From a virus, in IMG/VR virus record IMGVR_UViG_3300025601_001230, positions 1 through 28,394 of that record: a stretch of 28,394 nucleotides of DNA, one strand, 5' to 3'. Of the stretch, positions 1,331 to 22,667 are shown piece after piece. The notes below the pieces were generated by a model. It had not been told where the DNA came from, ran no database searches, and was given only the letters and a program-made list of their open reading frames with translations. The stretch's first letter is position 1. Every line of letters starts with the position of its first letter. The position numbers and the translations under genes are program-made.

Positions 1331-1352
1331 AAAAAAGCACTCCAAAGAGTGC
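1331..1352 (-). terminator. Rho-independent terminator after clpP
   Basis: Minus-strand hairpin with 6-bp stem GCACTC/GAGTGC and a TTTG loop (1337-1352), immediately followed by six T (1331-1336). It lies 23 bases past the clpP stop codon. It is the only classical intrinsic terminator I see in the window. Confidence 0.9.
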
Positions 1353-1375
1353 AGACTTATTAACTAGCGGCCTTG

Positions 1376-1948
1376 TTATATCTTTTGAAAAAGGCTATCT
1401 GCTAATCCCATTTCAATCATTTGTTGAGCTGTAAAATACTGATCACTTGATGCTAATAGATTTTTCTTAACCCATTTTACATCTTGACCACTAGCGTCAA
1501 CTAAGATATTAACCATTCGGTCATGGCACAGATCTACTTCAACTACTCCTGCCTTGATATCGTGATGTTTACCTAATACCTCATCACTGAATTGGTGACA
1601 CATTAACCCGGTGTTAGGTGATATAAATCTGTGCGACCTGTGTCCACTTACAAGTATCAAAAAGGCCGCACTCATAGCTGATCCCATAGCTACTGTGTGT
1701 ATGGGTATATGGCTAGCCTTCATAGCATCAATGATTGCAAATGTATCATACAAACTTCCACCAATCGAATTAATATATAAGGTAAGGTTCTTTTTTGATG
1801 AATCAATATTTTCATATGTAATCCATGACAAAATTTCTGCTGTATTCTTTTCTGCAATGTCTCCGTATAAGAAATTAACTCCAGAATCAAATAATCCTTT
1901 ATCGATTATATCTCGCGGTTCACCAACAACTGTGGTTCTTCCGATCAT
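1376..1948 (-). CDS. clpP: ClpP-type serine protease
   Basis: 190 aa, close to the usual length of bacterial ClpP (about 195-205). ClpP forms a barrel peptidase that degrades proteins fed by ClpX/ClpA-type ATPases. Visible features: Tyr-Ile-Asn-Ser-Ile-Gly-Gly-Ser at 58-65 (oxyanion loop), Gly-Ser-Ala-Met-Ser93-Ala-Ala (nucleophile), Met-Cys-His118-Gln (base) and Asp169 before Gln-Tyr-Phe-Thr-Ala, so the triad looks intact. The start at 1948 has AGGGG upstream and overlaps the TGA of the TraR-like gene (ATGA). No ATPase partner is in the window, so it probably works with a host Clp ATPase. A prohead-protease role is less likely in a T4-like phage, which usually has gp21 for that. It ends the rpoZ-traR-clpP operon, just before a terminator. 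Confidence 0.88.
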   Translation of the reverse strand: MIGRTTVVGEPRDIIDKGLFDSGVNFLYGDIAEKNTAEILSWITYENIDSSKKNLTLYINSIGGSLYDTFAIIDAMKASHIPIHTVAMGSAMSAAFLILVSGHRSHRFISPNTGLMCHQFSDEVLGKHHDIKAGVVEVDLCHDRMVNILVDASGQDVKWVKKNLLASSDQYFTAQQMIEMGLADSLFQKI

Positions 1949-2199
1949 AATACCCCTTTTCTTTCTAGGTAGTCTTGACAAGGAGTACAGTGTTGAACAC
2001 CTGGCATTGCTAATCGTCGAGCTTCTGGTATCGCCTCGCCACATTCTTCACATTCATAAGCACTAGGCGTCTCTGCCTGTTTTGCTAGCTTACGTTGAAC
2101 TTCGCTAACCGCATTCATGTGTAAATGGATAGCATGAAGCTGAGCCATTTCCTCTTCGGCTTCGTTACTATAGCTGAAATCGTCTTTGTTGTTAGTCAT
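1945..2199 (-). CDS. TraR/DksA-type C4 zinc-finger regulator of RNA polymerase
   Basis: 84 aa. The C-terminal half has four cysteines (50, 53, 71, 74) in Cys-Glu-Glu-Cys-Gly and Cys-Thr-Pro-Cys-Gln, separated by Ile-Pro-Glu-Ala-Arg-Arg. This matches F-plasmid TraR, a roughly 73-aa protein that enters the RNA polymerase secondary channel and mimics DksA plus ppGpp. The N terminus is acidic (Asp6, Asp7, a run of Glu at 15-17), as in TraR, and lacks the long DksA coiled coil. I chose ATG 2199; a longer frame would run through the upstream rpoZ coding end. It overlaps rpoZ by 8 bases and clpP by 4, so all three are coupled. Expected to retune host promoters during infection. Confidence 0.88.
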   Translation of the reverse strand: MTNNKDDFSYSNEAEEEMAQLHAIHLHMNAVSEVQRKLAKQAETPSAYECEECGEAIPEARRLAMPGVQHCTPCQDYLERKGVL

Positions 2200-2458
2200 A
2201 TGTTTCTTCTTTTTTCTCGTTAGTTGAAGGCTCAACATGATCATGCGGATAGCCAGCAGTAATTAGACCTTTTTCGATTTCCATTAATGCTACTACTGCA
2301 GGTTTATGTGTTTCTAATCCAGGAATTAACGGCTTAGCACCTCGCTGTAAATCATGAGCTCTTATTCCAGCAGTTATTACCATTGCATATTTACCACCTG
2401 GGAAATTACTTGCTGTATCGTTAGTAACTATGAAACTTTCTTTTACGTTGTAAGCCAT
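2192..2458 (-). CDS. rpoZ: RNA polymerase omega subunit homologue
   Basis: 88 aa, close to E. coli omega (91 aa). Residues 21-66 align by eye with the omega core: Lys-Tyr-Ala-Met-Val-hydrophobic-Thr-Ala-Gly-Ile-Arg-Ala-His, Gly-Ala-Lys-Pro-Leu-Ile-Pro, then His-Lys-Pro-Ala-Val-Val-Ala-Leu-Met-Glu-Ile-Glu-Lys-Gly-Leu-Ile. Omega sits on beta' and forms part of ppGpp site 1. The N terminus is Met-Ala-Tyr-Asn instead of Met-Ala-Arg-Val, so the usual Arg3 is absent. The start has GAGGAGAG upstream. It is the first protein gene after tRNA-Glu and overlaps the TraR-like gene. A phage omega could replace or compete with the host subunit (inference). Confidence 0.85.
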   Translation of the reverse strand: MAYNVKESFIVTNDTASNFPGGKYAMVITAGIRAHDLQRGAKPLIPGLETHKPAVVALMEIEKGLITAGYPHDHVEPSTNEKKEETYD

Positions 2459-2475
2459 GTATCTCTCCTCAAATT

Positions 2476-2550
2476 TGGTACACCCTAGGAGAATCGAACT
2501 CCTCTTGCCGGGATGAAAACCCGGTGTCCTAACCGATAGACGAAGGGTGC
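2476..2550 (-). tRNA. trnE: tRNA-Glu (anticodon UUC), CCA encoded
   Basis: Folds as a full cloverleaf on the minus strand. The 7-bp acceptor stem is GCACCCT with AGGGTGT (one G-U pair). The D-arm has GTCT/GGAC. The anticodon stem CCGGG/CCCGG encloses loop TTTTCAT with anticodon TTC. The T-arm is AGGAG-TTCGATT-CTCCT. Discriminator A and encoded CCA follow. It lies 17 bases upstream of the rpoZ start and shares its promoter. Confidence 0.95.
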
Positions 2551-2589
2551 ATAAATGGTGCCCAAAGGCTACTTCTTTATTACTGAGTA

Positions 2590-2618
2590 ATTATACGGTA
2601 TTACTTATATAAAGTCAA
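2590..2618 (-). promoter_or_regulatory. Sigma70-type promoter for tRNA-Glu/rpoZ/traR/clpP
   Basis: TTGACT (2613-2618), 17-base spacer, TATAAT (2590-2595). Predicted start near 2583, giving a leader of about 33 bases before the tRNA. Confidence 0.88.
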
Positions 2619-2635
2619 CCTAAATTTTGATTATT

Positions 2636-2821
2636 TTACGCCATTGAAAAACGTCTGGCTATCTCAGTACGATATCTTGCTTTTTCTTTGTTACGTTGAG
2701 CTTTTTCAATTGCTTCTTCTAATTGTGCTTTGGTCCACCCTTTAATTCTTAGTTTACCGTTACATGTTGCTTCAGGATTTGCTTTACGTTTACCTGGATG
2801 AACTTTTCCTATCTGTGCCAT
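2636..2821 (-). CDS. Basic 61-aa hypothetical protein
   Basis: Preceded by AAGGAGAATAGT, a strong ribosome binding site. The protein is rich in Lys and Arg throughout. Residues 28-61 form a probable charged helix (Gly-Trp-Thr-Lys-Ala-Gln-Leu-Glu-Glu-Ala). Nothing marks an enzyme; a small nucleic-acid-binding role is possible from charge alone. It ends just before the promoter of the tRNA-rpoZ operon. Confidence 0.7.
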   Translation of the reverse strand: MAQIGKVHPGKRKANPEATCNGKLRIKGWTKAQLEEAIEKAQRNKEKARYRTEIARRFSMA

Positions 2822-2851: not shown

Positions 2852-3223
2852 TTAGACTAATGTATTCTCTACAAACTTTTGTAAACTGCCACAAAGATTA
2901 ATCATAACAGCATCTCGCTCTCCAAACAAATATAATTTTCCTTTGGAGTTCTTACCTCGTGCTCTTTTAATATAATAAGGGTATTCCATCTTTCTGTCAA
3001 GTGCTAGAACTGTATGATTGCCCAACGCTGAATTTTGTTCTATGTCCCATTCGTATGATTTGATATCTAACTGTTGTGTAAATAATGCAAATCCATGTTG
3101 GGTTAATCCCATCCCACCTGTCTCTTGTATATTAGTCCACCAGGTAGCTAATGCAAGTTCCAATGAGAATGGCTTATTAAGGGTAGCAAGAATTTGCTTA
3201 GTTAGACTTAGTTTTCTTTCCAC
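2852..3223 (-). CDS. Hypothetical 123-aa protein, GTG start
   Basis: Starts with GTG at 3223, inside the 3' end of the upstream gene (26-base overlap). No clear Shine-Dalgarno is visible, so translation probably depends on the upstream gene. The sequence has a compact alpha/beta look: a helix at 5-35 with Trp-Trp, a Gly-Leu-Thr-Gln-His-Gly-Phe segment, then a basic loop rich in Lys, Arg and Gly near 87-95 before a final helix. I do not recognise the family. No signal or membrane segment. Confidence 0.7.
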   Translation of the reverse strand: MERKLSLTKQILATLNKPFSLELALATWWTNIQETGGMGLTQHGFALFTQQLDIKSYEWDIEQNSALGNHTVLALDRKMEYPYYIKRARGKNSKGKLYLFGERDAVMINLCGSLQKFVENTLV

Positions 3224-3512
3224 TGTCAGGATAAATTACTTTGCCTTTGTCTAGTAGTACAACAGAGAAAGTGTCAGTTTGGAATTGTTCGTTGAGTTTC
3301 TTTGCTAGATTAATAGCGTGCCCTGGGTTACTAAACGATACTTTCTTATATTTAGGCCCTGGATATTGAACTAGGTAGTTGCTGGTTTTTAAATTAATAG
3401 GTCGAGCTTCAAAATATACTGCCCATATACCATCACTGGCTAACACCTGTTCTGTTTTATATGTTTCCTTGTTGGTAATTTCAACAAGTACTTCTGGCTT
3501 TGGTCTGCTCAT
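3198..3512 (-). CDS. Hypothetical 104-aa protein
   Basis: First gene after the promoter at 3527-3555. There is no Shine-Dalgarno before ATG 3512, and the predicted transcript start is only about 8 bases upstream. The protein has several alternating strand-like stretches (residues 8-14, 26-35, 45-49, 55-60) and a helix around 63-76 with Ala-Lys-Lys-Leu-Asn, then a C-terminal strand and a basic tail. Function not recognised. It overlaps the following 123-aa gene by 26 bases. Confidence 0.7.
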   Translation of the reverse strand: MSRPKPEVLVEITNKETYKTEQVLASDGIWAVYFEARPINLKTSNYLVQYPGPKYKKVSFSNPGHAINLAKKLNEQFQTDTFSVVLLDKGKVIYPDSGKKTKSN

Positions 3513-3526
3513 TGATTAATAATACT

Positions 3527-3555
3527 GTTATAATATAGTACCATTATTTATCCAA
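3527..3555 (-). promoter_or_regulatory. Probable sigma70 promoter, weaker match
   Basis: TTGGAT (3550-3555), 17-base spacer, TATAAC (3527-3532), upstream of the 104-aa gene. It also contains GATAAATA (minus strand), one base from the T4 late promoter TATAAATA, so late use is an alternative. The stretch 3556-3624 shows no gene or clear hairpin. Confidence 0.5.
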
Positions 3556-3624
3556 ATAACTGCGTAGTTTATTAATTCTAGAAGTCTCTATAGTTGATAC
3601 AGCTTAGTTACCCTTAACCTGGTG

Positions 3625-3720
3625 TTATCTGCATATCCAATATATAATGATAGTTACTAATACAACAACCACAATACCTATTCTGGTGTTCTCTTGTTTA
3701 TTCTGTTGTGATTTATTCAT
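3625..3720 (-). CDS. 31-aa single-pass membrane peptide
   Basis: A very short gene that starts 5 bases after the TAG of the 63-aa gene, with AGGC as a weak ribosome binding site. The N-terminal 13 residues are polar (Asn, Lys, Gln rich). Residues 14-29 are a Val/Ile-rich membrane helix ending Tyr-Trp-Ile-Cys-Arg. It is the last gene of the long operon that begins at 15.6 kb. Function unknown; coding status rests on position and composition only. Confidence 0.5.
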   Translation of the reverse strand: MNKSQQNKQENTRIGIVVVVLVTIIIYWICR

Positions 3721-3725
3721 TTTGC

Positions 3726-3917
3726 CTAGAAGTCTTTGCCTTTTACTTCAATATTAATTACTTCGTTTGTTGATGTACTAATGTCTTTGGTGTCTATAAG
3801 CAATTTTGTAATGTCTGTGTGCAACATTCTAGCCTCGTGCATACTCATAGTAAAATCTTTAGCGTTTGTTGATTGTAGGTCGTTTAATCGATCTATAAAA
3901 CGCTTTATATGTGTCAT
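3726..3917 (-). CDS. Hypothetical 63-aa protein
   Basis: Starts at ATG 3917, overlapping the TGA of the upstream 152-aa gene (ATGA), so it is translationally coupled. Residues 1-42 are predicted mainly helical, with His and Asp residues (Met-His-Glu-Ala-Arg-Met-Leu-His). The C terminus is a short strand with Ile-Glu-Val-Lys. No motif recognised, no membrane segment. A shadow frame on the other strand covers the same stretch and is not favoured, because every surrounding gene is on the minus strand. Confidence 0.65.
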   Translation of the reverse strand: MTHIKRFIDRLNDLQSTNAKDFTMSMHEARMLHTDITKLLIDTKDISTSTNEVINIEVKGKDF

Positions 3918-4372
3918 GCTTTAACCTTAAGCAGTTCTTCGGGAGTTACATAAGGACCACGATGATCATATCGTTCAATGGTAATTAGTTTTGGACAAAA
4001 CTCTTGTTTCCAAGAACGTCCTTTTTTAACTAGAAACCAACCTGCACAAATCCAACTCTTACTGTTATCTTCTTTAGTAAAGATAGGTGCTTTGTGTGAT
4101 AAGTCCCATACTCCGTTAAACGGTTCAGCATCTGTAGGATAACCATGGACCTGATCTCTTTCTACTAAATTAGGTGATGGTGCATCTACAAACGTAATTT
4201 TCTTACGTCCAATCTTAAGTTCATCTACGTTGTCAACAGTTGCCTTTGACCCGTGAAATGTAATTGAATAACCTCGTCCGACGCCGTTAGCTGATATCTC
4301 ACCTATACGTCTTTTGTTTTCAATTAATACCCAAAATTTATTTTTAACAATTCCTTTTGCTGTTACTGCCAT
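3914..4372 (-). CDS. Hypothetical 152-aa protein
   Basis: One base separates its ATG from the TGA of rnh, and AAGGAG lies inside the rnh end. The N-terminal 60 residues read as a small beta domain (Phe-Trp-Val-Leu-Ile-Glu, then Gly-Tyr-Ser-Ile-Thr-Phe-His-Gly). Residues 85-130 contain many aromatic and charged positions. The C-terminal part has a Pro-Lys-Leu-Ile-Thr-Ile-Glu-Arg-Tyr strand. I recall no family name. Its tight spacing behind rnh suggests a replication- or repair-associated accessory role, but that is context only. Confidence 0.7.
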   Translation of the reverse strand: MAVTAKGIVKNKFWVLIENKRRIGEISANGVGRGYSITFHGSKATVDNVDELKIGRKKITFVDAPSPNLVERDQVHGYPTDAEPFNGVWDLSHKAPIFTKEDNSKSWICAGWFLVKKGRSWKQEFCPKLITIERYDHRGPYVTPEELLKVKA

Positions 4373-4373
4373 G

Positions 4374-5372
4374 TCATGCTCCTTTTGCTGGATAGCTTGC
4401 TGAAAGAAAGTCAGCTATTGTTGTTGCATTATCGCTTAATCGTTTTAAATCATACTTACCACAGAACTTTAAGAACTGTGCACCAATCATTGGTCTTTGC
4501 TTAGGTGTACTTCCTTCTATAATTGTGTCTACTATAATTTGTTTAACATCATCTGGTTGTCGAGAAAGGTCTACTAGAATACAATTACGTTCATAGTCAT
4601 CTAATACCCTATGTTCTTCATCATTATGATCTACCCAACGCTGTAGCATCATGTTATTCCAGCTATAGCCTTTTTTCTTTTTATCTTCAAATGCTTCTAG
4701 CAGGCCGACTTTATTCTTAGTACCTTTTTTACGAACACCTGGGTAAGCACTAAAGACATTATCAGTAGCATCACCACGCATACATTTTTCAAACAATATC
4801 CATTCTGGATTAGGTATTACCTTAGGTTCTTTAGTCTTCTTATCTAGAACACGTTGTCCTTTCTTGTCAATGATACCGTCTAATGTGTGTAATTCGTCAC
4901 TGATACCATTATACTGTTTAACATTTTCGGCTAATAACTGATAAAAGTCAGTATCACTAGACACAATAACGTGTTCATCTTCAGGGTGACTTTGTACCCA
5001 ACCTGCAATCAAATCATCAGCTTCTAGTCTACTGTGTTGTAATACAGTACAGTTAGTTTTATCTTTAACAAAGTCTTTAAGATCATCAAAGGCATCCCAA
5101 AATAACTTATCTTCCTCTGCTTCTTTTTCGGTTAACGCCTGTCGTGCAACTGCTCTATTTGCTTTATAGGGAGCGTAGAAGTCTTTACGCCATGACCGAC
5201 CTTCTAAACAAAATATAACATGATTAGCACTTTGATCTCTATAGGCCTTGTTAATACTTGATAATGTAACATGGACTGCAAACGCTACTTTTTCCTCGCT
5301 AGAACTCCCCCTGAATGCTGAATGCCTAGCACGGAAGTATGTATTTGCTGTGTCTACTAATAAGTATCTCAT
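4374..5372 (-). CDS. rnh: T4 RNase H-like 5'-3' exonuclease / flap nuclease
   Basis: 332 aa, similar in length to T4 RNase H (305 aa). These metal-dependent nucleases remove RNA primers and flaps from lagging-strand fragments. Acidic motifs: Leu-Leu-Val-Asp7, Leu-Glu117-Ala-Asp119-Asp120, Ser-Ser-Asp140-Thr-Asp142 and Arg-Gly-Asp201-Ala-Thr-Asp204-Asn before the helix-hairpin-like Pro-Gly-Val-Arg-Lys-Lys-Gly. All expected metal ligands appear present. The start is fixed by the N-terminal catalytic strand. No ribosome binding site precedes it; the perfect promoter at 5379-5407 puts the transcript start on or next to the A of ATG. Works with gp43 and gp45 encoded in the same window. Confidence 0.9.
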   Translation of the reverse strand: MRYLLVDTANTYFRARHSAFRGSSSEEKVAFAVHVTLSSINKAYRDQSANHVIFCLEGRSWRKDFYAPYKANRAVARQALTEKEAEEDKLFWDAFDDLKDFVKDKTNCTVLQHSRLEADDLIAGWVQSHPEDEHVIVSSDTDFYQLLAENVKQYNGISDELHTLDGIIDKKGQRVLDKKTKEPKVIPNPEWILFEKCMRGDATDNVFSAYPGVRKKGTKNKVGLLEAFEDKKKKGYSWNNMMLQRWVDHNDEEHRVLDDYERNCILVDLSRQPDDVKQIIVDTIIEGSTPKQRPMIGAQFLKFCGKYDLKRLSDNATTIADFLSASYPAKGA

Positions 5373-6434: not shown

Positions 6435-6802
6435 TATGATACCTCTGATTTACCGTTACCTAGGTCTCGTTTAGTAGTACGCATGCCTGGATTCATTGCC
6501 TGTTCTTGTTCAAATGTTTCCATTACTACGTTTCTACAGATATTTTGAAACCATTGGTCTACTAAATCTTGGTCTGTTTTACCTTGATAGCCTGCTTTCA
6601 TTAATCTAGCAATAAAGATGTCATTCCAATCTAGGTCAAAACTTCCTTCGTTAAGATTTTCTGGATCAATGTCCATACTTAAAATATTAATATACGGCTC
6701 TTTATTTTTATCTGCCAATGCTTTTGCCGACAACTTCTTACTAGTTGTTTTAATTTCTTTTTTAATACCTACTACTTTCTTAATGCTATCTATCAATCCC
6801 AT
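6434..6802 (-). CDS. Conserved-type T4-like phage hypothetical, 122 aa
   Basis: I chose ATG 6802, which sits behind GGGAGAAAATAGG; an upstream in-frame ATG lies deeper in metK. It overlaps the metK end by 10 bases. The N-terminal 35 residues are Lys-rich and helical (Met-Gly-Leu-Ile-Asp-Ser-Ile-Lys-Lys). Residues 38-100 form a defined domain with Asp-Leu-Asp-Trp-Asn-Asp-Ile-Phe-Ile-Ala and Val-Asp-Gln-Trp-Phe-Gln. The pattern is one I associate with hypothetical proteins of T4-like marine phages, but I cannot give a function. No catalytic signature. Confidence 0.75.
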   Translation of the reverse strand: MGLIDSIKKVVGIKKEIKTTSKKLSAKALADKNKEPYINILSMDIDPENLNEGSFDLDWNDIFIARLMKAGYQGKTDQDLVDQWFQNICRNVVMETFEQEQAMNPGMRTTKRDLGNGKSEVS

Positions 6803-7875
6803 CCTATTTTCTCCCAAGGAACATTTTTATTACCGAAGTGTCCATATGTACAATTCTTACTATAGTTAGTATACTTGAATAAATCAAACCTGTCAATGAT
6901 TCCTAATGGTGTTAGGTCAATATTATCTCTAATAAATTTTTCTATACTACGATTGTGTCCATTTGATTCTACGTAAATTGATGTAGGTTCTTTAATACCA
7001 ATTGCATAACTTAACTGTATCTGGCACCAATCAGCTAACTCGTCTGCTACAACGTTCTTTGCTAACCAACGGGCCATGTATGCCGCCGAACGATCTACTT
7101 TGGTAGGATCTTTGCCTGAAAATGCTCCCCCACCATGTGGAGCCCAACCACCATATGTGTCTACAATAATTTTACGTCCTGTTAGTCCTGTATCACCATC
7201 TGGTCCACCTATTACAAAGTTACCTGTAGGATTAAGATGCCATACTGTTTTGTTGTCTACTAACTCACCTAACACATCCATTGCGGCTTTCTTGCTTAAT
7301 CCTCTTGCTTCGTTACAAAAGCCCTGTTCATGTTGAGTACTAATAACAACCTGATCAATACGTTGTACTCGATCGCCTAAATATTCAACTGATACTTGAC
7401 TCTTAGCATCCGGTAACAATATACTATTATCCTGTCGTATGTCTTTCAATCGTTTAAGTATTTCGTGACTGTAATAGATAGGTGCTGGTAAGTACGCATC
7501 ATTGTCTCTATTAGCATACCCGAACATAATACCTTGATCGCCTGCTCCGAAACTATCTGTACCTAGAGCAATATCAGCTGATTGACTGTGTATTCTATTG
7601 TCTATTTCTAATGTATTCCAATGAAACCCTTCTTGTTCGTATCCGATATCTTTAACTTTGTCTCTCACTATTTGATTAATGTCTACAACATTAAAGTTTT
7701 TAACTTCACCTGCTATAGTGACTTGATCGGTTGTTACCAACGTTTCAATAGCTACTCTTGTTGTGCGATCACCATTTTCTAAACCAGCATCAACTAACGC
7801 ATCAGATATTTGATCTGCTACTTTGTCTGGATGTCCGTCACTCACTGATTCACTTGTAAAAATATAATTGTCCAT
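6793..7875 (-). CDS. metK: S-adenosylmethionine synthetase
   Basis: 360 aa, slightly shorter than bacterial MetK (about 384). It makes SAM from methionine and ATP. Motifs are highly conserved: Gly14-His-Pro-Asp-Lys18, Gly-Ala-Gly-Asp-Gln114-Gly-Ile-Met-Phe-Gly, Pro-Asp-Ala-Lys-Ser-Gln at 155-160, Pro-Thr-Gly-Asn-Phe-Val-Ile-Gly-Gly-Pro around 216-225, and Gly-Gly-Gly-Ala-Phe-Ser-Gly-Lys-Asp at 248-256. It should be active. It starts directly after the TAA of queE (TAAATG), so SAM production is coupled to a radical-SAM enzyme. The class I methyltransferase two genes upstream is another consumer. The C terminus is trimmed relative to E. coli. Confidence 0.95.
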   Translation of the reverse strand: MDNYIFTSESVSDGHPDKVADQISDALVDAGLENGDRTTRVAIETLVTTDQVTIAGEVKNFNVVDINQIVRDKVKDIGYEQEGFHWNTLEIDNRIHSQSADIALGTDSFGAGDQGIMFGYANRDNDAYLPAPIYYSHEILKRLKDIRQDNSILLPDAKSQVSVEYLGDRVQRIDQVVISTQHEQGFCNEARGLSKKAAMDVLGELVDNKTVWHLNPTGNFVIGGPDGDTGLTGRKIIVDTYGGWAPHGGGAFSGKDPTKVDRSAAYMARWLAKNVVADELADWCQIQLSYAIGIKEPTSIYVESNGHNRSIEKFIRDNIDLTPLGIIDRFDLFKYTNYSKNCTYGHFGNKNVPWEKIGWD

Positions 7876-8748
7876 TTATGTCCCCCAGGCGTTACTCCAT
7901 ATGTCTACTTGTAGTCTAGGTGAGTACCTATAACCTTTCTTCATTGCTAGCTCTGCTATCTGTGCTGTATTAAGATGATAGTCTTCTGGTAAACCCCCAA
8001 CTGGCATTAGATATACAGGACCTGTATAACCTGCTTCTCTATATATTTTTACTGCACGATCAACATCTTCAACATCTTCAGGACTTGCTACTACAAACTT
8101 AAGATATGTGTATCCGTATTTTTCATATTCAGTAACTACTTCTGGCAGTATAGCTTCACTCCACTTTTCACCTGACACAGGAAGTTTAGCACTAACTGAG
8201 AATGTCATCTTGTGATAACCGCGTTCTTCTTGCCACACATGTTTTAACCATGTTTTAAAATCTTCGCTTAACGGTTGGGTACCGTTTGTTTCAAATGTAA
8301 TGTTTTGTAATCCATTATCCATACACGACTCAATTAGTTCAGGATATGCACGTTGCCACCCTAGTAACGGTTCACCACCTGTAATAACTAAATGAACATC
8401 TTCATAATTAACCTGTGTCCAGGTATTGTTAGGTATAAGTTCTTCTGCACGTTTACGTACTGCATCTGTTGTTAGTACAGGACTTAGATGTTTAAATTTA
8501 GGATGCCATGACGCATAGCTATCACACCCTTTACTTACTAAAGGTAGTTCTTCATATGTTTTAAACTCTGCAATACGTTCAGCAATTTCTTCAGGTTCTT
8601 TGTTTAGGGGTGCTCCGCCAAACGGCATACCAAAGCCTCTGCATTGGAAGTTGCACCCAAACGTTCTTAAGAATACACTAGGTACCCCTGCCCATTTACC
8701 TTCACCTTGTAAACTGTAAAATATTTCAGCTACCTTAAGTTTTTCCAT
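7876..8748 (-). CDS. queE: QueE-like 7-carboxy-7-deazaguanine synthase (radical SAM)
   Basis: 290 aa, longer than E. coli QueE (223 aa). QueE converts 6-carboxy-tetrahydropterin to 7-carboxy-7-deazaguanine. Seen: Tyr-Ser-Leu-Gln-Gly-Glu-Gly at 11-17, Arg-Thr-Phe-Gly-Cys32-Asn-Phe-Gln-Cys36, and Thr-Gly-Gly-Glu-Pro-Leu-Leu at 123-129. The expected third cluster cysteine after two residues is Phe39. The next cysteine is Cys75 in Gly-Cys-Asp-Ser-Tyr-Ala-Ser-Trp, after an inserted segment of about 38 residues, and is the best candidate for the third iron ligand. The start overlaps the 43-aa membrane gene (TAATG). Makes the pathway intermediate for DpdA-type DNA modification. Confidence 0.88.
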   Translation of the reverse strand: MEKLKVAEIFYSLQGEGKWAGVPSVFLRTFGCNFQCRGFGMPFGGAPLNKEPEEIAERIAEFKTYEELPLVSKGCDSYASWHPKFKHLSPVLTTDAVRKRAEELIPNNTWTQVNYEDVHLVITGGEPLLGWQRAYPELIESCMDNGLQNITFETNGTQPLSEDFKTWLKHVWQEERGYHKMTFSVSAKLPVSGEKWSEAILPEVVTEYEKYGYTYLKFVVASPEDVEDVDRAVKIYREAGYTGPVYLMPVGGLPEDYHLNTAQIAELAMKKGYRYSPRLQVDIWSNAWGT

Positions 8749-8879
8749 TATCTATTCCTGTCTTTGTTGTAATATTCTTTAGTATGTTTACCCTTAACAT
8801 CATTCCGACTACTAATCAATGACCAAACTGCTAGGGCAAATACTCCAACAACTACTACTAAAACAATATAAAGTTCCAT
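8748..8879 (-). CDS. 43-aa single-pass membrane peptide
   Basis: A short gene fitted exactly between the methyltransferase and queE, overlapping each by one base (TAATG on both sides). This is strong evidence that it is translated. Residues 2-22 are a Val/Leu/Ala-rich membrane helix ending Trp-Ser-Leu-Ile. Residues 23-43 are polar and basic, with two Tyr and several Lys/Arg/Asn. Function unknown. Confidence 0.7.
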   Translation of the reverse strand: MELYIVLVVVVGVFALAVWSLISSRNDVKGKHTKEYYNKDRNR

Positions 8880-9661
8880 TATATTTTCCTTGCTTTAATT
8901 AATAAATGCCACCCTAAATACTCTTGAACTGCTTCACGCATTTCAGCTGGCATTGCATCAAACCAGGGTTCTAATTCATTCTCACCTTGCTTGTACTTGT
9001 TTACATTATACATGAAACAGTGAGCCTGAGCAAGCGTGACTATATCAAAACGGCCTTTTAATAGCATTGCTATTTCATCTTTAGTAAATGCTTCTGCGTA
9101 AGGACAGTTTGATTGTGCTTCAAATTGATCTAACCCTTTCTGTATCATAGCATATTTCCAGGAGTTCTTAGCGTATACCATAAAGCGGAACTCGCCATTG
9201 GTAGCAACATTGTGATATATGTTATTGATTATACCTTGTATGTCTGGATAGTGATGTATTACTCCCATAGAATATACTAAATCAAATTCACCTAACTGCT
9301 TTAGGGCTTCACTATCTGCGGCGTCAATGACATGAAACTCTCCATCGAGATCGTATACTTTAAATTGTTGTTTAGCTAGGTCAACTGACTCTTGCGATAT
9401 ATCTATACCAACATAGTGAGCACCGTGTTTAGCAAACTCAACAGCATCCCACCCCATACCACACCCAATTTCTAATACACGTTTCCCTCTCCATTGATGA
9501 AACTCAGCAAAGTCTCTAAGGTGAGGTTCTACACTGTAACGACGTTGGCTACCTGTTTGGAAGTATTCTAATGTGCCAATTTCACCTTGCCCTTTTTTAA
9601 TACCGCAAGGTTGATTATCCCAATAAGTTTTAATTTCACTTATTAGTTTATTTTTTTTCAC
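8879..9661 (-). CDS. Class I SAM-dependent methyltransferase
   Basis: 260 aa. Motif I is Val-Leu-Glu-Ile-Gly-Cys-Gly-Met-Gly at 62-70, followed by Gly-Ile-Asp-Ile at 85-88 (motif II acid) and Phe-Asp-Leu-Val-Tyr-Ser-Met-Gly-Val-Ile-His-His (motif IV region), the pattern of UbiE/type 11 methyltransferases. It starts with GTG at 9661, overlapping the glycosyltransferase by 14 bases. The substrate cannot be read. Location among sugar-transfer and 7-deazaguanine genes suggests a small molecule, glycan or modified base. Confidence 0.85.
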   Translation of the reverse strand: MKKNKLISEIKTYWDNQPCGIKKGQGEIGTLEYFQTGSQRRYSVEPHLRDFAEFHQWRGKRVLEIGCGMGWDAVEFAKHGAHYVGIDISQESVDLAKQQFKVYDLDGEFHVIDAADSEALKQLGEFDLVYSMGVIHHYPDIQGIINNIYHNVATNGEFRFMVYAKNSWKYAMIQKGLDQFEAQSNCPYAEAFTKDEIAMLLKGRFDIVTLAQAHCFMYNVNKYKQGENELEPWFDAMPAEMREAVQEYLGWHLLIKARKI

Positions 9662-10568
9662 TTCTTGCCTTTTCTTCTTTTGATGTAGATTGACCTGGCT
9701 TGTATTTTTTCTTTGGATCTACTCTCATAGTTAACCCATGAGGATCATTTGCTTCTAGTTTGTCCCAGGCTTTCCCTTTACCATTGATTACCTTTTCAAA
9801 GTGATCATTGTACTTGCCTTTTTGTTTTAGATACCACATAATTTTAGCACATGTTGTGTATCTTGTAGCATTCATTTCTGGACTATTAAGATCCATTGGG
9901 TTTGTAGGATCACCTTCTAGTTGAACTCGAGCTTTGTAAACTTCATCGTTAGTGGCATCATTACCTGTAATGTCATGCCTATCATGCCATATTTCTAAAT
10001 CAAATTCATTTTCCATAATGTCACATAGGTAAGCAATTTGACTTACCCAAGCATCTGTCATTTGTTGTGGACTAATTGATCCAGTTAATACAAAATATTC
10101 GTGTGGTATAATAGGAAATATTGCGTAAGGGTGCTCGTGATTGTCTTTACATCTAAATATTTTAAATTCACCTGTGTGTCTATGAATTATTGAGTCCCAA
10201 TCTTTGGTCATCATTCTGGCATCATCATTAAAGAATAAGAACCAGTCACCACTAGCTCTTTGTGCTAGATAATTTAAATATTCATTTAATCTAGTATACC
10301 CCCATTTAGGCACTACATGTACTTCATAATCAACACTGTGTTTGTCCATATAGGGAATAATCGTTTTTTCAAAATAGTCTTGTGATACTTGATCATCTTC
10401 ATCCAATGCCATAAGATACTCAACACCACCTTTACCACTTTCATTTTTCCAACAACTTTTTAACGCATCAAACATCATCTCTGGTCTAGCTCGTGTAGGA
10501 ACTAATACACTAACACGTTTGGTAGGAGACATAATTGTGTTACATAGTTTTTTTAGGTCTATACTCAT
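9648..10568 (-). CDS. GT-A glycosyltransferase-like protein (family 2 type)
   Basis: 306 aa from ATG 10568, chosen because GGTGG precedes it and it overlaps the phosphoribosyltransferase TGA (ATGA). Seen: Val-Ser-Val-Leu-Val-Pro-Thr-Arg-Ala-Arg-Pro at 19-29 (nucleotide-sugar strand), Ala-Leu-Asp-Glu-Asp-Asp (54-59) and Phe-Phe-Asn114-Asp115-Asp116-Ala (a DxD-like metal site). The C-terminal 100 residues are basic and unlike standard family 2. Acceptor unknown: phage DNA base, tail protein or host glycan are all possible. Soluble; no membrane segment. Confidence 0.75.
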   Translation of the reverse strand: MSIDLKKLCNTIMSPTKRVSVLVPTRARPEMMFDALKSCWKNESGKGGVEYLMALDEDDQVSQDYFEKTIIPYMDKHSVDYEVHVVPKWGYTRLNEYLNYLAQRASGDWFLFFNDDARMMTKDWDSIIHRHTGEFKIFRCKDNHEHPYAIFPIIPHEYFVLTGSISPQQMTDAWVSQIAYLCDIMENEFDLEIWHDRHDITGNDATNDEVYKARVQLEGDPTNPMDLNSPEMNATRYTTCAKIMWYLKQKGKYNDHFEKVINGKGKAWDKLEANDPHGLTMRVDPKKKYKPGQSTSKEEKARSEKK

Positions 10569-11020
10569 TGCCACCAATCTTCCCACGGAAATACAATCCA
10601 GGCATTGTTCTCATGTTTGTTGATATCAACAGCTGAATAATCTACAGTTGCTTCACTAGCTTCGTTATTAATTAATACTGCATAGTCAACATATGTGTCA
10701 CCCCAACTCTCTTTAATAGCATTTATAGTAGCACCAGTATCATTGATATCATCTATAACTAATATTCGCTTACCAAAGCCAACACCTAATACTGTCTTCA
10801 TATCTAGTAAATTATCTGATCCTACATGGTCTCTAAGACTTACCTTTAAGGCGTGCATTGGTATGTCCAGATACTGTGAAACCAGCACTGCGGGCGGTAA
10901 ACCACCCCTTGTGAGTCCTACTACACAGTCATATTTGTTATGATCAATGGTTACTTGACGTATGATATCCTGTGTAAGCCCTTGAATATCACTCCAATTA
11001 TAATATGCTTTCTTAGTCAT
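10565..11020 (-). CDS. Type I purine phosphoribosyltransferase-like protein
   Basis: 151 aa from ATG 11020, with GGAAG upstream; a longer frame would run into queD. The PRPP loop is Val-Ile-Asp-Asp-Ile-Asn-Asp-Thr-Gly-Ala-Thr (88-98), and the N-terminal Gly-Leu-Thr-Arg-Gly-Gly-Leu-Pro-Pro (35-43) is the pyrophosphate loop of xanthine/hypoxanthine-type enzymes. The C terminus Trp-Ile-Val-Phe-Pro-Trp-Glu is a hallmark of the Gpt-like/COG2236 group. It may recycle purine bases, or act on a free 7-deazaguanine base; the second idea is only suggested by its place next to queD. Confidence 0.82.
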   Translation of the reverse strand: MTKKAYYNWSDIQGLTQDIIRQVTIDHNKYDCVVGLTRGGLPPAVLVSQYLDIPMHALKVSLRDHVGSDNLLDMKTVLGVGFGKRILVIDDINDTGATINAIKESWGDTYVDYAVLINNEASEATVDYSAVDINKHENNAWIVFPWEDWWQ

Positions 11021-11030
11021 TGTTACTTCC

Positions 11031-11573
11031 TTATGTGTAATACACGCTTCTAGATTTAGGTGTTTCATACCATTCAACACGTTGTACAGTAACATTAAGT
11101 TTTTTCATTTTTACTTGTACTAATCCTGCCATCCACGATGATAAGTTTTCTGATGTAGGCACAAAGTCTACAATCATAAATCCTTCATAATATTCATACT
11201 CTGGAGTTGTTGGATCTAAATCACTTAAATCTAGATGCCAACCTGCTACGTGTTCAGTGTTTGGAATAGTAACTGGCAGTAATTTACGATCACCAATCAT
11301 TTGATTGTACAATGGATCATTGCGATCTAACACAAACTGATGATCAATATATTCGTTAATCCATTTCTTCAACCACTCTAAATGCCGAAAGTCTGTTACC
11401 ATTCCTGTAACATCTAGTTTGTCTGCTGTTAAATGAACTGTCATTCGACCTTCATGCCCGTGTAAATGTCTACATGCACATTTTAAGTCTGCGGCATACT
11501 CACCGTTTAATGTCTGCGTATGTACCCTATGTCCATAACAGAATTCAAATGCTTTATCGATTACATGTGCCAT
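11031..11573 (-). CDS. queD: QueD-like 6-carboxy-tetrahydropterin synthase
   Basis: 180 aa, longer than E. coli QueD (121 aa). It makes 6-carboxy-tetrahydropterin from dihydroneopterin triphosphate, the step between FolE and QueE. Zinc ligands His15, His38 and His40 (in Cys34-Arg-His-Leu-His-Gly-His) and the catalytic Cys34 are present. Met-Val-Thr-Asp-Phe at 58-62, Asp77-His78-Gln-Phe, Pro-Thr-Ser-Glu-Asn-Leu and the C-terminal Tyr-Glu-Thr-Pro follow in the right order. Extra residues lie around 83-130. ATG 11573 follows a purine-rich AAAGGAAAAAT. The same operon carries queE. Confidence 0.93.
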   Translation of the reverse strand: MAHVIDKAFEFCYGHRVHTQTLNGEYAADLKCACRHLHGHEGRMTVHLTADKLDVTGMVTDFRHLEWLKKWINEYIDHQFVLDRNDPLYNQMIGDRKLLPVTIPNTEHVAGWHLDLSDLDPTTPEYEYYEGFMIVDFVPTSENLSSWMAGLVQVKMKKLNVTVQRVEWYETPKSRSVYYT

Positions 11574-11622
11574 ATTTTTCCTTTACTTGTTAATTATTAT
11601 TACAAATCTTTTGTTAAATTAC

Positions 11623-12081
11623 TTATTGGTGTCTCTCTGCATCAGCTACTCTTTTACGTAATGAACTTGAACTAAATGAATGGTCTCTACCATTATACAC
11701 TAATTCAATCCCTCTTTTAATACAAATATCTTTACCTGTAAAGTCCTTACTTTCATACTCTACTCCTAATATTCTAACATCAATTGGCAGTGTGAGCAAG
11801 ATATCTTGGAGATCTTTTTCAGTCTGATATACCACTATCTCATCAACAAATCTATTACAACCTAGCTGTATCTGTCTTTCTACTATCGATTGTATTGGTG
11901 CGTTCTTTGAAGCTCTGTCTAATGTCGGATCTGTTTGTAGGCCTGCTATCAAGTAGTCACAATGATTTTTACATTCTGATAACATAGCAACATGTCCTGC
12001 ATGTAAAAGATCAAAGGTTGAGAATGTAATTCCTATCTTTAACCCTTGTGCTTTAAGATCCTTTACTTTGTCAAAGATCAT
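11623..12081 (-). CDS. Cytidylyltransferase-like nucleotidyltransferase
   Basis: 152 aa. The HxGH motif is Thr-Phe-Asp-Leu-Leu-His27-Ala-Gly-His30, and the C-terminal Ser-Ser-Ser-Ser-Leu-Arg142-Lys-Arg matches the ISTTxxR-type motif. Both are typical of the glycerol-3-phosphate cytidylyltransferase/TagD and RfaE-like group, which activate a phosphorylated alcohol or sugar with CTP or ATP. Its start directly follows the autotransporter stop (TAAATG). Probable role: making a nucleotide-activated precursor for glycan or lipid modification. Substrate unknown. Confidence 0.85.
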   Translation of the reverse strand: MIFDKVKDLKAQGLKIGITFSTFDLLHAGHVAMLSECKNHCDYLIAGLQTDPTLDRASKNAPIQSIVERQIQLGCNRFVDEIVVYQTEKDLQDILLTLPIDVRILGVEYESKDFTGKDICIKRGIELVYNGRDHSFSSSSLRKRVADAERHQ

Positions 12082-15000
12082 TTAAAAAGAAAACTCATAA
12101 AATGCACCAATTTGGTATTGCTTGTTTTGGTCAAGTACACCAGACATTTTTAAACTATGTGTTTGACCGAACTGGTTTTCTACTAAATTAGTTCTATACT
12201 CACTACCAATGAAACCAATTGGTCCATTGTTTAATGCAACAGTGTGATTGGTATAGTTCATGGTACCGTCTGTACTAACGCTAGTTGGTAAGGTAAGATT
12301 AACGCTACCATAAACTACCATTGGCTTGATACCTGTATATAAGTTAATGTTATCATCTGACCAACCAGCCATTGCATATACACTAGTAATTGGAGTAACA
12401 TCATTAACTAATCCAGCTTCAAAGTCAGTTAGTGAATACATTATACCACCTTGAGCATAAAAGTTTTTAGGCTGATATAACGTTGAGTATTCAAATGTTG
12501 TAGTACTGTCTACACTACCAAACATACCATCAAACGATACAAAGGGAGAATACTGACTCCTTGTCATTGTAAACTTCTCAGTGAACGATGACTTGTTGAG
12601 TATTTTCCCATCTACTGGACTTCTAGTTGCAAATGCAGTGCTATCAAATCCCATTGTAACATTGTTGAATGATTTATCATCACTGTTATCACTTTGGTAA
12701 GCATTAAAGTGCATACCGTTATACTCTTGTGTGCCACCAACAAACTTGCTTGACCATGAGTTACCAGCTTTGTGGTTTAACTGATAAACAGGAATTAAAT
12801 CTTTTGTTTGTGCTAGATTACTAAGGTTAACAGTATAATCTCTACCGATAGCATCAATTGCTGATACACTTGATAATAATGATTCGGCTCCCCCACCCAC
12901 AGCACTAAAACTACCTGATATAGCACTTGCTGTACCTGTTCTACCTGTAGTTGAAATACCTAAGTCACCAATTGGCTCTGTAGCTTTCTTAAGATCCAAC
13001 AGTCCTTGCCCATGTATATTAACATCGTAATTTACGATAGTTTTATCAGCAGTTTGTAATAACACTTGTACTAAGTTTTCGCCTTTCATGTAAGGCCATT
13101 GTTGATGTAATACTGCAATAGCACCCGACACCACTGGTGTCGCTTGTGATGTACCTGACAGATTTCTAAAAGTACCATCTTTCCATGTTGACTTAACATT
13201 GGCACCTGGTGCCAATATATAAAAGTCTGATGTTTTATATGTATCAGCACATTCGCTACCTGTCCAGTTTTTACATACATGTCCGGCAGTACTTCCCTCA
13301 ACGCTAGACACATTAGTGTTCCACATACCAGCGATAATCATTTTTCCACCAAGCAACAAGTTTCCATCAGCATCAGTAGATGTTGCAAATGTAGCTGGAT
13401 TCTGTACATACCCATTTGATTGGTTTCCAGCCGCAACTACTAATACCATTTCACTGTCTTTTAATGCATCTGCCCACTGTTGAGGATCCTCTAAATTGTA
13501 ATAGTTTGCACCACCGTAATGAGTAATGTTAGTGGTGAATATACCATTACCTTGATCAACCACTGAGCTACGGTATCCCCTTGAGTAACTAGTATTAGCT
13601 GATATGTTAGCAACAACAGCATCAGTGTTATCTACTAACCAAGTAATCCCTTGTCTGGCTCTCGACATTGAATAACTTCCGGTGGTCGTAATTCTAACAA
13701 CAGCTAGATCTGAATCAGGAGCTACACCCACTATACCTTCGTTGTCCAAACCTGCTGATGCAATACCGGCAACATGCGTTCCGTGACCATACAAGTCCTC
13801 TACATCACTTCCGCCATATAGTGTGTCATACTTATATTTGATACGACCTTCAAACTCTGGATTATCTAGATCAATACCACTATCTAGTATTCCAATAGTT
13901 GACCCTTTTCCTGTCCAGCCTCTTGCCAGAGCATACTCTTGTTTAATTGCACCATTAAAATTGTTTGAATATTCAGGCAACTCTGTATAATAATTAGAAT
14001 CATTGGAGACCATAATTGTAGGAGTACCATCAAACTCCAATACGCCGTCGAATACTACTCCTAGAGTCTCTTCTTCAACTACTACTACCGGTTCTTCTTC
14101 AACTACTACTACCGGTTCTTCTTCTACTTCTAATAATGCTAACCGTTCTACTTCTAATAATGCTAACCGTCTATCTTCTGCTTCGTCTAATAATCGTCTC
14201 GCTTCAGCAATGCTGATCTCTTCAGCACGTCTATCTTCTGCTAATACAATAGCTATTCGTTTTTCTTCTATTGCATCAGCAATTCTCTTTGCTTCAGCAA
14301 TACGTGTTGCCTCAAGTGCATCAGCTACTACTTTTACTTCAGCTACTCTCTTTGCTTCAGCAATACGTGTAGCCTCTAAGGCATCAGCTATTGCTTTGGC
14401 TTTGGCAATTCTCTTTTCTTCTATTGCATCTGCTACTGCTTTTGCTTCAGCAACTCTCTTAACTTCTATCGCATCTGCTACTGCTTTTGCCTCTGCTACT
14501 GCTTTTGCTTCAGCAACACGTGTAGCCTCTAAGGCATCAGCAACTCTCTTTTCTTCTATTGCATCAGCTATTCGTTTCTCTTCTATTGCTTCTGCTACTG
14601 CTTTAGCATCTGCTATTCGTTTCTCTTCTATTGCGTCAGCTATGGCTTTTGCATCAGCAACTCTCTTTTCTTCAGCAATACGTGTAGCCTCTAAGGCATC
14701 AGCTACTGCTTTTGCTTCAGCAATCCGTGTAGCCTTTAAGGCATCAGCTATTCGTTTCTCTTCTATTGCATCTGCTACTGCTTTTGCTTCAGCAACTCTC
14801 TTAACTTCTATCGCATCTGCTATAGCTTTGGCTTTTGCTTCAGCAATACGTGTTGCCTCTAAGGCATCAAATATAGCTTTGGCTTTTGCATCAGCTATTC
14901 TCTTTGCTTCAGCAATACGTGTTGCCTCTAAGGCATCAAATATAGCTTTGGCTTTTGCATCAGCTATTCTCTTTGCTTCAGCAATACGTGTTGCCTCTAA

Positions 15001-20956: not shown

Positions 20957-21126
20957 TATGCTAGTTTTTTCTTAAGTTTTTCAATCTGATCTTTAATAAA
21001 TAACTTCTCTTGCTTCATTTTAGTCAAGAGTGGATCAGCAATATAGTTAGTATAACGTTCTTTTATTTTTTTGTCAAGCTCTTGATGTTTCAATTCAAGT
21101 GCTGTTAAATGACTTAATTCGTTCAT
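20956..21126 (-). CDS. DUF465 (YdcH-like) small coiled-coil protein
   Basis: 56 aa. The sequence has the DUF465 pattern: Leu-Lys-His-Gln-Glu-Leu-Asp-Lys-Lys-Ile near the N terminus, Ala-Asp-Pro-Leu-Leu-Thr-Lys-Met-Lys-Gln-Glu-Lys-Leu and Lys-Asp-Gln-Ile-Glu-Lys-Leu. It would form an antiparallel helical hairpin. ATG 21126 overlaps the dpdA stop (ATGA), and its TAA overlaps the next ATG, so it is translationally locked between dpdA and the methyltransferase. Function of this family is not known. Confidence 0.8.
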   Translation of the reverse strand: MNELSHLTALELKHQELDKKIKERYTNYIADPLLTKMKQEKLFIKDQIEKLKKKLA

Positions 21127-22667
21127 ACTTCCTCCATCTCAAGTTTATCTAGTTTGTCCTCATCTAATGTAACTTCAGCTTCTTCTACTTCTACTACATC
21201 GCCCTCATCAAACAAGTTGTTAAACATAGTACCTGAATTCACTGTTTTCTTACCAATTGCTCCCCTGGTACCAATAATACTCATCCAAAACTTACTGTAA
21301 TGTTCAATAACGGCCATCGATTCTTCTTTAGTTTTAGCACCAAATATAGCATCACATACATCTCTGAAGGTAACTGTCTCAAATGTTTCTTGTATTAGCA
21401 TTGCAGGATACTTACCACTATCATACTGTCTGTTTGCTTCTTGTACTGCATTAAGATGTTGCCAAACATTATGCCCCATCATTATTGCGTAACTAAAACT
21501 ATCCCATGATGTCTTACCTTCTTTGCCATTTTTATTTAAGTCACCTGGCTTATAGATACAAATATCTTTCATCTCTAAGTTACGGCTTATTGGTGAGTCT
21601 TTAAAACTAGTATGGTACCCGTCTGCTAATACACCTTGACTAAACTGTCTAGTGTCAGTAGCATACTTTTTATTATCAGCAGTAGGTTGCATTCTATAAA
21701 CCCATTTCTTACGATCTTCAGTTTCAACATCTGTATAGATCTGACCATTTGCGGTAGCTAGGAACGGTGACGCACAATCGAATGATATTGTAAAATTAGG
21801 GTTATGATACTTTCTAACTGATCTTTGTACATCTGTTAATAACGTAGCCCACTCTAGTTTACTTGTGCCCAAGAAGTGCATCCAATCTTGCTTGCCTTCT
21901 TCTAGTAATCCATCATGTATAATAGTAACTAATCTGTGTAATACTAAATGTATATCACACATATTTTGTCCACCCATTGACCAACCATTAAAGTGATTAG
22001 TTGGGTATTGAGTTGGATCACAGTACTTCTTCATACGTTGATACCAATCTTCTGCTTGTGTGTGGTTCTCACCTTGTAACACGTTTAAGAACTTACATCT
22101 ACCAGTTCGATTATTAATAAAGTAATCATTGTTAATGTAAGTACCCTGAACTGCTTCTTCATAGCTATTAATGTTTGTTGCTTTACGTCCTTCTGGACTA
22201 CGGCAAACCCACGCTGGTATATCTAAAATCATACCATAGTCCATATAAGCATCCATCCAGGCAAGTACTTGCTCACGTTTCTTTTTAGCTTTAGGACAAT
22301 TAGGATTCTTCCAATCACCTTCCCAAACACCTTTACCAATCTGAAAGCCACCAGAGTCACCTAGTACCCAAGCACCTGGCTCTCTTTTACGAACCATATC
22401 TTCTTTAGGACTGTCTCTGGTAACATCTAAGTCAGCATGTCCTGCTGAGTATAATGACCACTTGTAAGTGAACACACCTTCTTTACTATTCAACCAATTA
22501 AAGTTTTCCATGTCAGGTAATTTTGTAGGCATCCTCGCAGGGTCAACATAGTCGTTAGCCACTCTTTGTTTGCCTATGAATGTGCCATAGAAACTACTTA
22601 ATGCTGGTAAAAATATAGCATAGTCATTCTGCTTTACTGTTAAGTCGTCGTGTTCTACTCTAGCCAT
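21123..22667 (-). CDS. dpdA: DpdA-like DNA 7-deazaguanine transglycosylase (TGT fold)
   Basis: 514 aa. TGT-type enzymes exchange guanine for a 7-deazaguanine; the DpdA branch does this in DNA. Catalytic layout seen: Leu-Gly-Asp104-Ser-Gly-Gly-Phe-Gln (general base motif), Met-Ile-Leu-Asp149-Ile-Pro (base recognition), Val-Leu-Gln198-Gly-Glu, Gly228-Trp-Ser-Met-Gly-Gly233 and Ile-Ser-Phe-Asp297-Cys-Ala-Ser-Pro (nucleophile). The CxCxxC zinc motif that follows in tRNA TGTs is not visible, which argues against a normal tRNA enzyme. It sits between the sliding clamp (TAATG overlap) and DUF465, so it is made with replication proteins. Substrate made by folE, queD and queE in this window. Confidence 0.9.
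   Translation of the reverse strand: MARVEHDDLTVKQNDYAIFLPALSSFYGTFIGKQRVANDYVDPARMPTKLPDMENFNWLNSKEGVFTYKWSLYSAGHADLDVTRDSPKEDMVRKREPGAWVLGDSGGFQIGKGVWEGDWKNPNCPKAKKKREQVLAWMDAYMDYGMILDIPAWVCRSPEGRKATNINSYEEAVQGTYINNDYFINNRTGRCKFLNVLQGENHTQAEDWYQRMKKYCDPTQYPTNHFNGWSMGGQNMCDIHLVLHRLVTIIHDGLLEEGKQDWMHFLGTSKLEWATLLTDVQRSVRKYHNPNFTISFDCASPFLATANGQIYTDVETEDRKKWVYRMQPTADNKKYATDTRQFSQGVLADGYHTSFKDSPISRNLEMKDICIYKPGDLNKNGKEGKTSWDSFSYAIMMGHNVWQHLNAVQEANRQYDSGKYPAMLIQETFETVTFRDVCDAIFGAKTKEESMAVIEHYSKFWMSIIGTRGAIGKKTVNSGTMFNNLFDEGDVVEVEEAEVTLDEDKLDKLEMEEV

Follow-up and report, generated by a model that had tools for sequence, protein, structure and literature searches.

The window analysed here is an entire IMG/VR virus record of 28,394 bases. 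On its minus strand lie, in order, a promoter, a tRNA-Glu gene, the genes for an RNA polymerase (RNAP) omega subunit, a TraR-type protein and a ClpP-family peptidase, and a terminator (Table 1). The omega and TraR genes overlap by 8 bases (2192-2199), and the TraR and ClpP genes by 4 bases (1945-1948). The promoter, the terminator, the tRNA-Glu and the two overlaps had been described in the original prediction, and all of them were located again on this strand. The promoter has the form TTGAC[A/T/C]-17-TATAAT in the window and in the five homologous loci examined. The immediate upstream neighbour, a basic protein, matched no family above the cut-off in profile searches.

Table 1. Features of the omega-TraR-ClpP locus and its upstream neighbours in the window
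Feature	Position	Strand	Basis and remarks
Sigma70-type promoter TTGACT-17-TATAAT	2590..2618	-	11/12 consensus matches; kept upstream of tRNA or omega in homologous loci
tRNA-Glu (anticodon TTC)	2476..2550	-	ARAGORN; 17 nt upstream of omega
RNA polymerase omega subunit homologue, 88 aa	2192..2458	-	PF01192, TIGR00690, PDB omega chains
TraR/DksA-type four-cysteine zinc-finger protein, 84 aa	1945..2199	-	PF01258, TIGR02419, phrog_54, PDB TraR
ClpP-family serine peptidase, 190 aa	1376..1948	-	PF00574; alignment with E. coli ClpP
Intrinsic terminator hairpin GCACTC-TTTG-GAGTGC-TTTTTT	1337..1352	-	Sequence
Basic protein, 61 aa, no assigned function	2636..2821	-	Immediate upstream neighbour; homologues upstream in L001, L003, L005, L006 (75-82%)
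Upstream block orf123, orf104, orf63, orf152, 5'-3' exonuclease	2852..5372	-	Marks the syntenic omega-TraR site

The omega homologue passed two curated cut-offs, with 38.9 bits (8.5e-10, cut-off 26) for PF01192 and 37.2 bits (2.3e-9, cut-off 23.6) for TIGR00690 rpoZ, and its PDB matches were RNAP omega or archaeal K chains only. The RpoZ profile match on which the original prediction had staked its omega assignment was thus found. An AlphaFold model of this protein (pLDDT 41) was uninformative and was set aside.

The TraR homologue was matched by PF01258 (49.1 bits, 5.5e-13, cut-off 24.9), by TIGR02419 with a score equal to its cut-off of 59.7 (59.7 bits, 3e-16), and by phrog_54 (5.9e-16). Its best PDB match was F-plasmid TraR itself (2.3e-9). 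These matches agree with the earlier recognition of a TraR-type protein carrying a four-cysteine finger with IPEARR. An alternative upstream ATG is present at 2244, with the frame open.

The third protein was matched by PF00574 with 115.5 bits (3.3e-33), and in the alignment with E. coli ClpP its Ser, His and Asp residues align with the ClpP triad, as had been predicted. The same alignment revealed that it is without the N-terminal axial loop, and that Thr, Ala and Ser stand where E. coli ClpP has the pocket residues Tyr60, Phe82 and Leu114; Y62 and F112 are conserved. Tyr60, Phe82 and Leu114 have a role in docking Clp ATPases. Since the axial loop and these pocket residues are lost, the window ClpP is not assumed to work with host ClpX or ClpA. 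The original prediction referred to ClpP as the peptidase of Clp machines; features expected for a partner of a Clp ATPase are missing, and the protein is better designated as a ClpP-family peptidase whose partnership with a Clp ATPase is at most putative. Loopless ClpP of the window type was also found in L010 and L011, and as one of the two ClpPs in the 331-kb contig G039 (L221; C1:110073-110654 and 112320-112943), where the loopless and the canonical genes are 1.7 kb apart. This proximity allows a model of mixed rings.

The PolB encoded in the window is 43-45% identical to those of Sinorhizobium phage Phosso, Agrobacterium phage Atu_ph07 and the 350-kb Erwinia/Serratia/Escherichia phages. 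By this kinship, the source is predicted to be a jumbo T4-like phage, of which the record is a 28-kb fragment. Megablast of the first 25 kb of the window against the phage collection returned zero matches, and omega was not found in the complete jumbo phages closest by PolB. Elsewhere on the minus strand, genes for MetK, a QueE-like radical SAM protein, a QueD-like PTPS and GTP cyclohydrolase I (6793-16429) suggest a 7-deazaguanine pathway. A 1177-aa protein (12082-15615, minus strand) has a signal-like N-terminal stretch, long EAKAVADA-type repeats, a subtilase domain (PF00082) and an autotransporter-like end, and is atypical for a phage. A 514-aa protein at 21123-22667 is without a Pfam or NCBIfam match.

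Conservation of the locus in related contigs

Six IMG/VR contigs (L001-L006) encode close omegas, 66-88% identical to that of the window; L003 and L004 are probably a single virus assembled twice. In these contigs and in the 66-kb contig G013 (L224), TraR directly follows omega at the same genomic site (7/7). The omega of G013 is only 37% identical, yet TraR follows it as in the window clade. The overlap of the two genes is 8 bases in L001, L002, L003 and L006, and 11 bases in L005. The upstream block has an identical order in L001, L002, L003, L005 and L006, and is found in the same order, with 40-84% identity, in G013. The block and omega are separated in this last contig by genes for a desaturase-like protein and a beta-ketoacyl synthase (PF00109; L224 8946-11579).

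The tRNA-Glu is present in five of the six closest contigs, at a constant place before omega in L001 and L003-L006 and not in L002, and is identical at 75/75 positions in L001, L003 and L006. The anticodon stem of the L005 tRNA-Glu (4910-4984) has 10 base differences from those of the other phages, with pairing apparently kept. ClpP is more restricted: three of the six (L001 and L003/L004) encode it, L002 has in its place a different gene that is unmatched in Pfam, and it is not at the site in L005, L006 and G013. These ClpP-less relatives, which keep omega-TraR, rule out the three genes as a fixed module. The synteny expected by the original prediction was thus seen for the omega-TraR pair and the flanking genes, while its "single coupled unit" of three genes does not hold, ClpP being replaced or missing in relatives. 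Omega-TraR is a conserved unit, usually accompanied by tRNA-Glu, and ClpP is an exchangeable, optional cargo.

Relative to the window, ClpP and omega are 98% and 70% identical in L003, and 79% and 88% identical in L001. This disagreement in relatedness likely reflects recombinational exchange at the operon end that carries ClpP. In the 158-kb contig G014 (L035 4980-5875), omega is not present and the gene immediately behind TraR encodes another, canonical-looking ClpP, so the adjacency of TraR and ClpP may have arisen more than once. Pairwise dN/dS values are about 0.10-0.32 for omega, 0.04-0.41 for TraR and 0.05-0.13 for ClpP. As all are well below 1, the three are real genes under purifying selection.

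Omega in other phage lineages and its N-terminus

A genome scan with a narrow omega alignment had given zero matches; a broader scan revealed omega in 34 further IMG/VR contigs beyond the window clade, one of them bacterial (L122, see below). Omega is present in several other uncultivated jumbo-phage lineages. Two of the omega-bearing contigs, G039 (331 kb) and G032 (209 kb), also encode a T4-like gp23 capsid protein. tRNA genes are densely clustered around many of the further loci. In L096-L098 and L127 a tRNA again precedes omega, the gap to the omega start being some 30-40 bases. A MoxR-type ATPase gene is located downstream of omega in L001, L005, L006, G013, G039, L099 and L105/L108, hinting at an old common neighbourhood. 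Permuted tmRNAs were detected by ARAGORN in phage contigs (L112 7378-7749, L099 1907-2405 and L035 8024-8483), with the tags ANDEVFALAA, ANDSQFALAA and one longer, doubtful tag.

Several omega matches were rejected as bacterial. L122 (IMG/VR) is an E. coli chromosomal piece with gmk-rpoZ-spoT and was excluded from the phage omegas; the gmk neighbour is missing from the further omega contigs other than L122. The only omega matches in the phage record collection (Campylobacter phages A11a/A18a and Salmonella/Escherichia records) look like bacterial DNA. MG065691.1 (Campylobacter phage A11a, marked UNVERIFIED) is E. coli chromosome, 100% identical over 6.2 kb, and the Campylobacter phage A18a record is probably E. 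coli DNA likewise.

TraR was not detected in most omega-positive phage contigs, and the omega-TraR pair is therefore not obligatory. The RNA polymerase beta subunit (PF00562) was not found in the 27 contigs searched, which include the omega-bearing G039 and G032. As no phage beta subunit was detected, host RNAP is the most likely partner of the phage omega, which lends support to the target named in the original prediction. Omega in many other jumbo phages, as well as the link to ppGpp described below, are additions to that prediction.

The core residues Ala23, Arg26, Glu53, Ile54 and Gly57 (E. coli numbering) are invariant across the phage omegas (28/28). Tyr at E. coli position 63 is likewise seen in 28/28 and is missing from the sampled beta- and gamma-proteobacterial omegas. 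Glu at position 29 was considered as another phage signature and dropped, alphaproteobacterial omegas also having RARE. In a tree, the window omega is set off from the proteobacterial ones by a long branch. Support for a single origin of all phage omegas was 99/98 in one tree and 88/95 without long branches, and a grouping of the window clade with bacteria was not rejected by the AU test (p 0.70). Given the weaker support and this test result, a single origin is not claimed.

At Site 1 of E. coli RNAP, the phosphates of ppGpp are coordinated by residues 2-5 of omega (PMC7676912), and MAR is described as the motif by which omega binds ppGpp (PMC9638019). M[ATSG]R[VIL][TS] was observed before the core in 103/103 sampled alpha-, beta- and gamma-proteobacterial omegas, counted without motif-based trimming. 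The motif is missing from the window clade, whose omegas start with M(A/V)(Y/W)(N/D)(A/V)K(K/E/R)SF, and from 26 of the 28 phage omegas as a whole, most of the motif-less ones being extended instead. The omegas of L112 and L123 retain MARxT/S, and the L095 clade retains ARxT behind a short extension. The basic residues K6 and K/E/R7 of the window clade, near the lost motif, could compensate for it. If the host's own omega lacks MARxT, the loss is uninformative, and a host outside the proteobacteria would call for another comparison set. RNAP with beta' changes and an omega lacking residues 2-5 binds ppGpp only about 2-fold worse (PMC7676912), and Site 1 alone gives only about 2-fold inhibition by ppGpp, its loss having modest effects in E. 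coli (PMC6970531). With effects of this size, the loss of Site 1 may matter little.

A SpoT/RelA-like HD hydrolase gene is located about 2 kb downstream of omega in L108 (7082-7618; TIGR00691 1.9e-21, PF13328). Similar SpoT-like genes are near omega in L105, L106, L109-L111 and L116, which belong to an omega-phage clade other than that of the window. In this clade (L105-L111, L116), the hydrolase is an independent link to ppGpp.

Possible roles of the omega-TraR pair

The operon may serve a jumbo T4-like phage that uses host RNAP to take over transcription, with omega and TraR decoupling transcription from the ppGpp alarm. This reading is favoured here, tentatively. Host sigma70 would read the strong promoter and produce one transcript carrying tRNA-Glu, omega, TraR and, in the window phage, the ClpP-like peptidase. 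With its core residues conserved, the phage omega would occupy the place of omega on host beta'. As the MARxT contact with beta' is missing, the resulting polymerase is expected to be less sensitive to ppGpp at Site 1. TraR by itself, without ppGpp, matches the strength of DksA together with ppGpp (PMC7676912, PMC6970531, PMC2613031). The phage TraR would enter the secondary channel and impose a DksA/ppGpp-like state without ppGpp, lowering rRNA-type promoters and favouring others. Since the Site 1 motif is gone and TraR needs no ppGpp, the pair would touch both ppGpp sites on RNAP. If the phage omega is incorporated into host RNAP, the ppGpp response is lost and the two proteins act jointly, transcription during infection would be uncoupled from the host's starvation alarm and kept in a condition that benefits the phage. 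ClpP, as an optional addition, probably acts on proteins independently of the host Clp machine or by mixing with it, and any substrate can only be surmised.

A wider form of this proposal is possible but more doubtful: omega may have been remodelled in several jumbo-phage lineages to remove Site 1, with the window clade pairing it, through the overlapping genes, with a TraR that replaces ppGpp/DksA at Site 2, as a two-part bypass of the stringent response in which the virus would exchange a core subunit of host RNAP for its own. A ppGpp bypass by the omega-TraR pair is plausible. If it is true, it would show how large viruses sustain transcription in starved or alarmed cells, and it would offer a natural test of the functions of the omega N-terminus and of Site 1. 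These functions are hard to settle because E. coli is only mildly affected when omega is deleted.

It is unlikely that the phage omega is only a spare part, which holds the host core polymerase together through a long infection and leaves regulation unchanged, with TraR alone being regulatory. Omega is a known folding chaperone of beta' (PMC5811629), and both the conserved core residues and the many omega-positive phages without a detected TraR would fit such a role. A spare part would, however, be expected to keep the host N-terminus, which is changed in 26/28 phage omegas, and the overlap of the omega and TraR genes in the window clade also argues against it.

Rather unlikely is a role of the phage omega as a private docking platform that, once part of host RNAP, recruits a phage activator to phage promoters, in which the changed N-terminus and the acidic tail would be contact surfaces for this activator and not a means of ppGpp escape. 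No activator gene was seen in the omega operon, and its promoter is a plain sigma70 consensus needing no activator. The precedent is GafA, the gene transfer agent activator, which contacts RNAP omega directly (PMC9638019). Residues common to the phage omegas, such as the Tyr63 described above, could be read in the same way, but they may reflect ancestry, and the omegas compared are proteobacterial only.

For ClpP, a function as the phage prohead (head maturation) protease, with incidental adjacency to TraR, is improbable. Although head maturation proteases rank highest among its PHROG matches (phrog_94, 99 bits), the NCBIfam model of free ClpP scores higher (109 bits) than that of head-maturation ClpP (73 bits). 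No structural gene was noticed nearby, and close relatives with the same flanking genes are without ClpP at this site, although their contigs are fragments. It is very improbable that the omega belongs to a phage-encoded multi-subunit RNAP elsewhere in the genome: some jumbo phages encode such enzymes (PMC7824862) and the window is only a 28-kb fragment, but PF00562 is unmatched even in the omega-bearing contigs of 331 and 209 kb, with the caveat that divergent RNAPs might escape the model and contigs may be incomplete, and the complete jumbo phages nearest by PolB are without omega.

Comparison with known systems

Phages capture host RNA polymerase via sigma appropriators and inhibitors. In T4 (AsiA/MotA) and T7 (Gp2), small proteins of the phage bind to the host enzyme and alter its promoter choice. 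The window phage differs from them in supplying a homologue of a core subunit, not an inhibitor or a sigma appropriator. In full-text searches of the open-access literature, no description of a phage-encoded omega was found. A jumbo-phage survey mentions ClpP and not omega, TraR or DksA (PMC7824862), and omega is unmentioned in the main text of a huge-phage paper (PMC7162821). The conserved omega-TraR operon with optional ClpP is real, and its setting was not found described in that literature.

The window omega shares with bacterial RpoZ the core motifs and the profile scores above curated cut-offs. It differs in being phage-encoded, in its N-terminal extension without MARxT, and in its location away from gmk/spoT. 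The GafA-omega system of RcGTA is similar in that a virus-like element works through omega; there the activator contacts the host omega (PMC9638019), whereas the window virus brings its own.

The window TraR resembles F-plasmid TraR and the phage TraR-DksA-like proteins (phrog_54, e.g., phage 186 Orf80) in its size of about 80 aa, its short N-terminal helix region, its C4 zinc finger with IPEARR and its acidic N-terminal residues. As read from the alignment, it is about 4 residues longer than F TraR from the acidic tip to the first cysteine. Asp6, the acidic N-terminal tip residue of TraR, is needed for function (PMC2613031); the window protein has Glu instead, with the distance to the finger greater by about one helical turn, and Glu15/Glu16 are invariant in the TraR of the six relatives. 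Unlike these proteins, it is encoded in a jumbo phage by a gene overlapping that of omega. The ClpP belongs to the same family as the ClpPs of bacteria and other jumbo phages (PMC7824862), with the triad intact, but it is without a propeptide or axial loop and sits behind omega-TraR.
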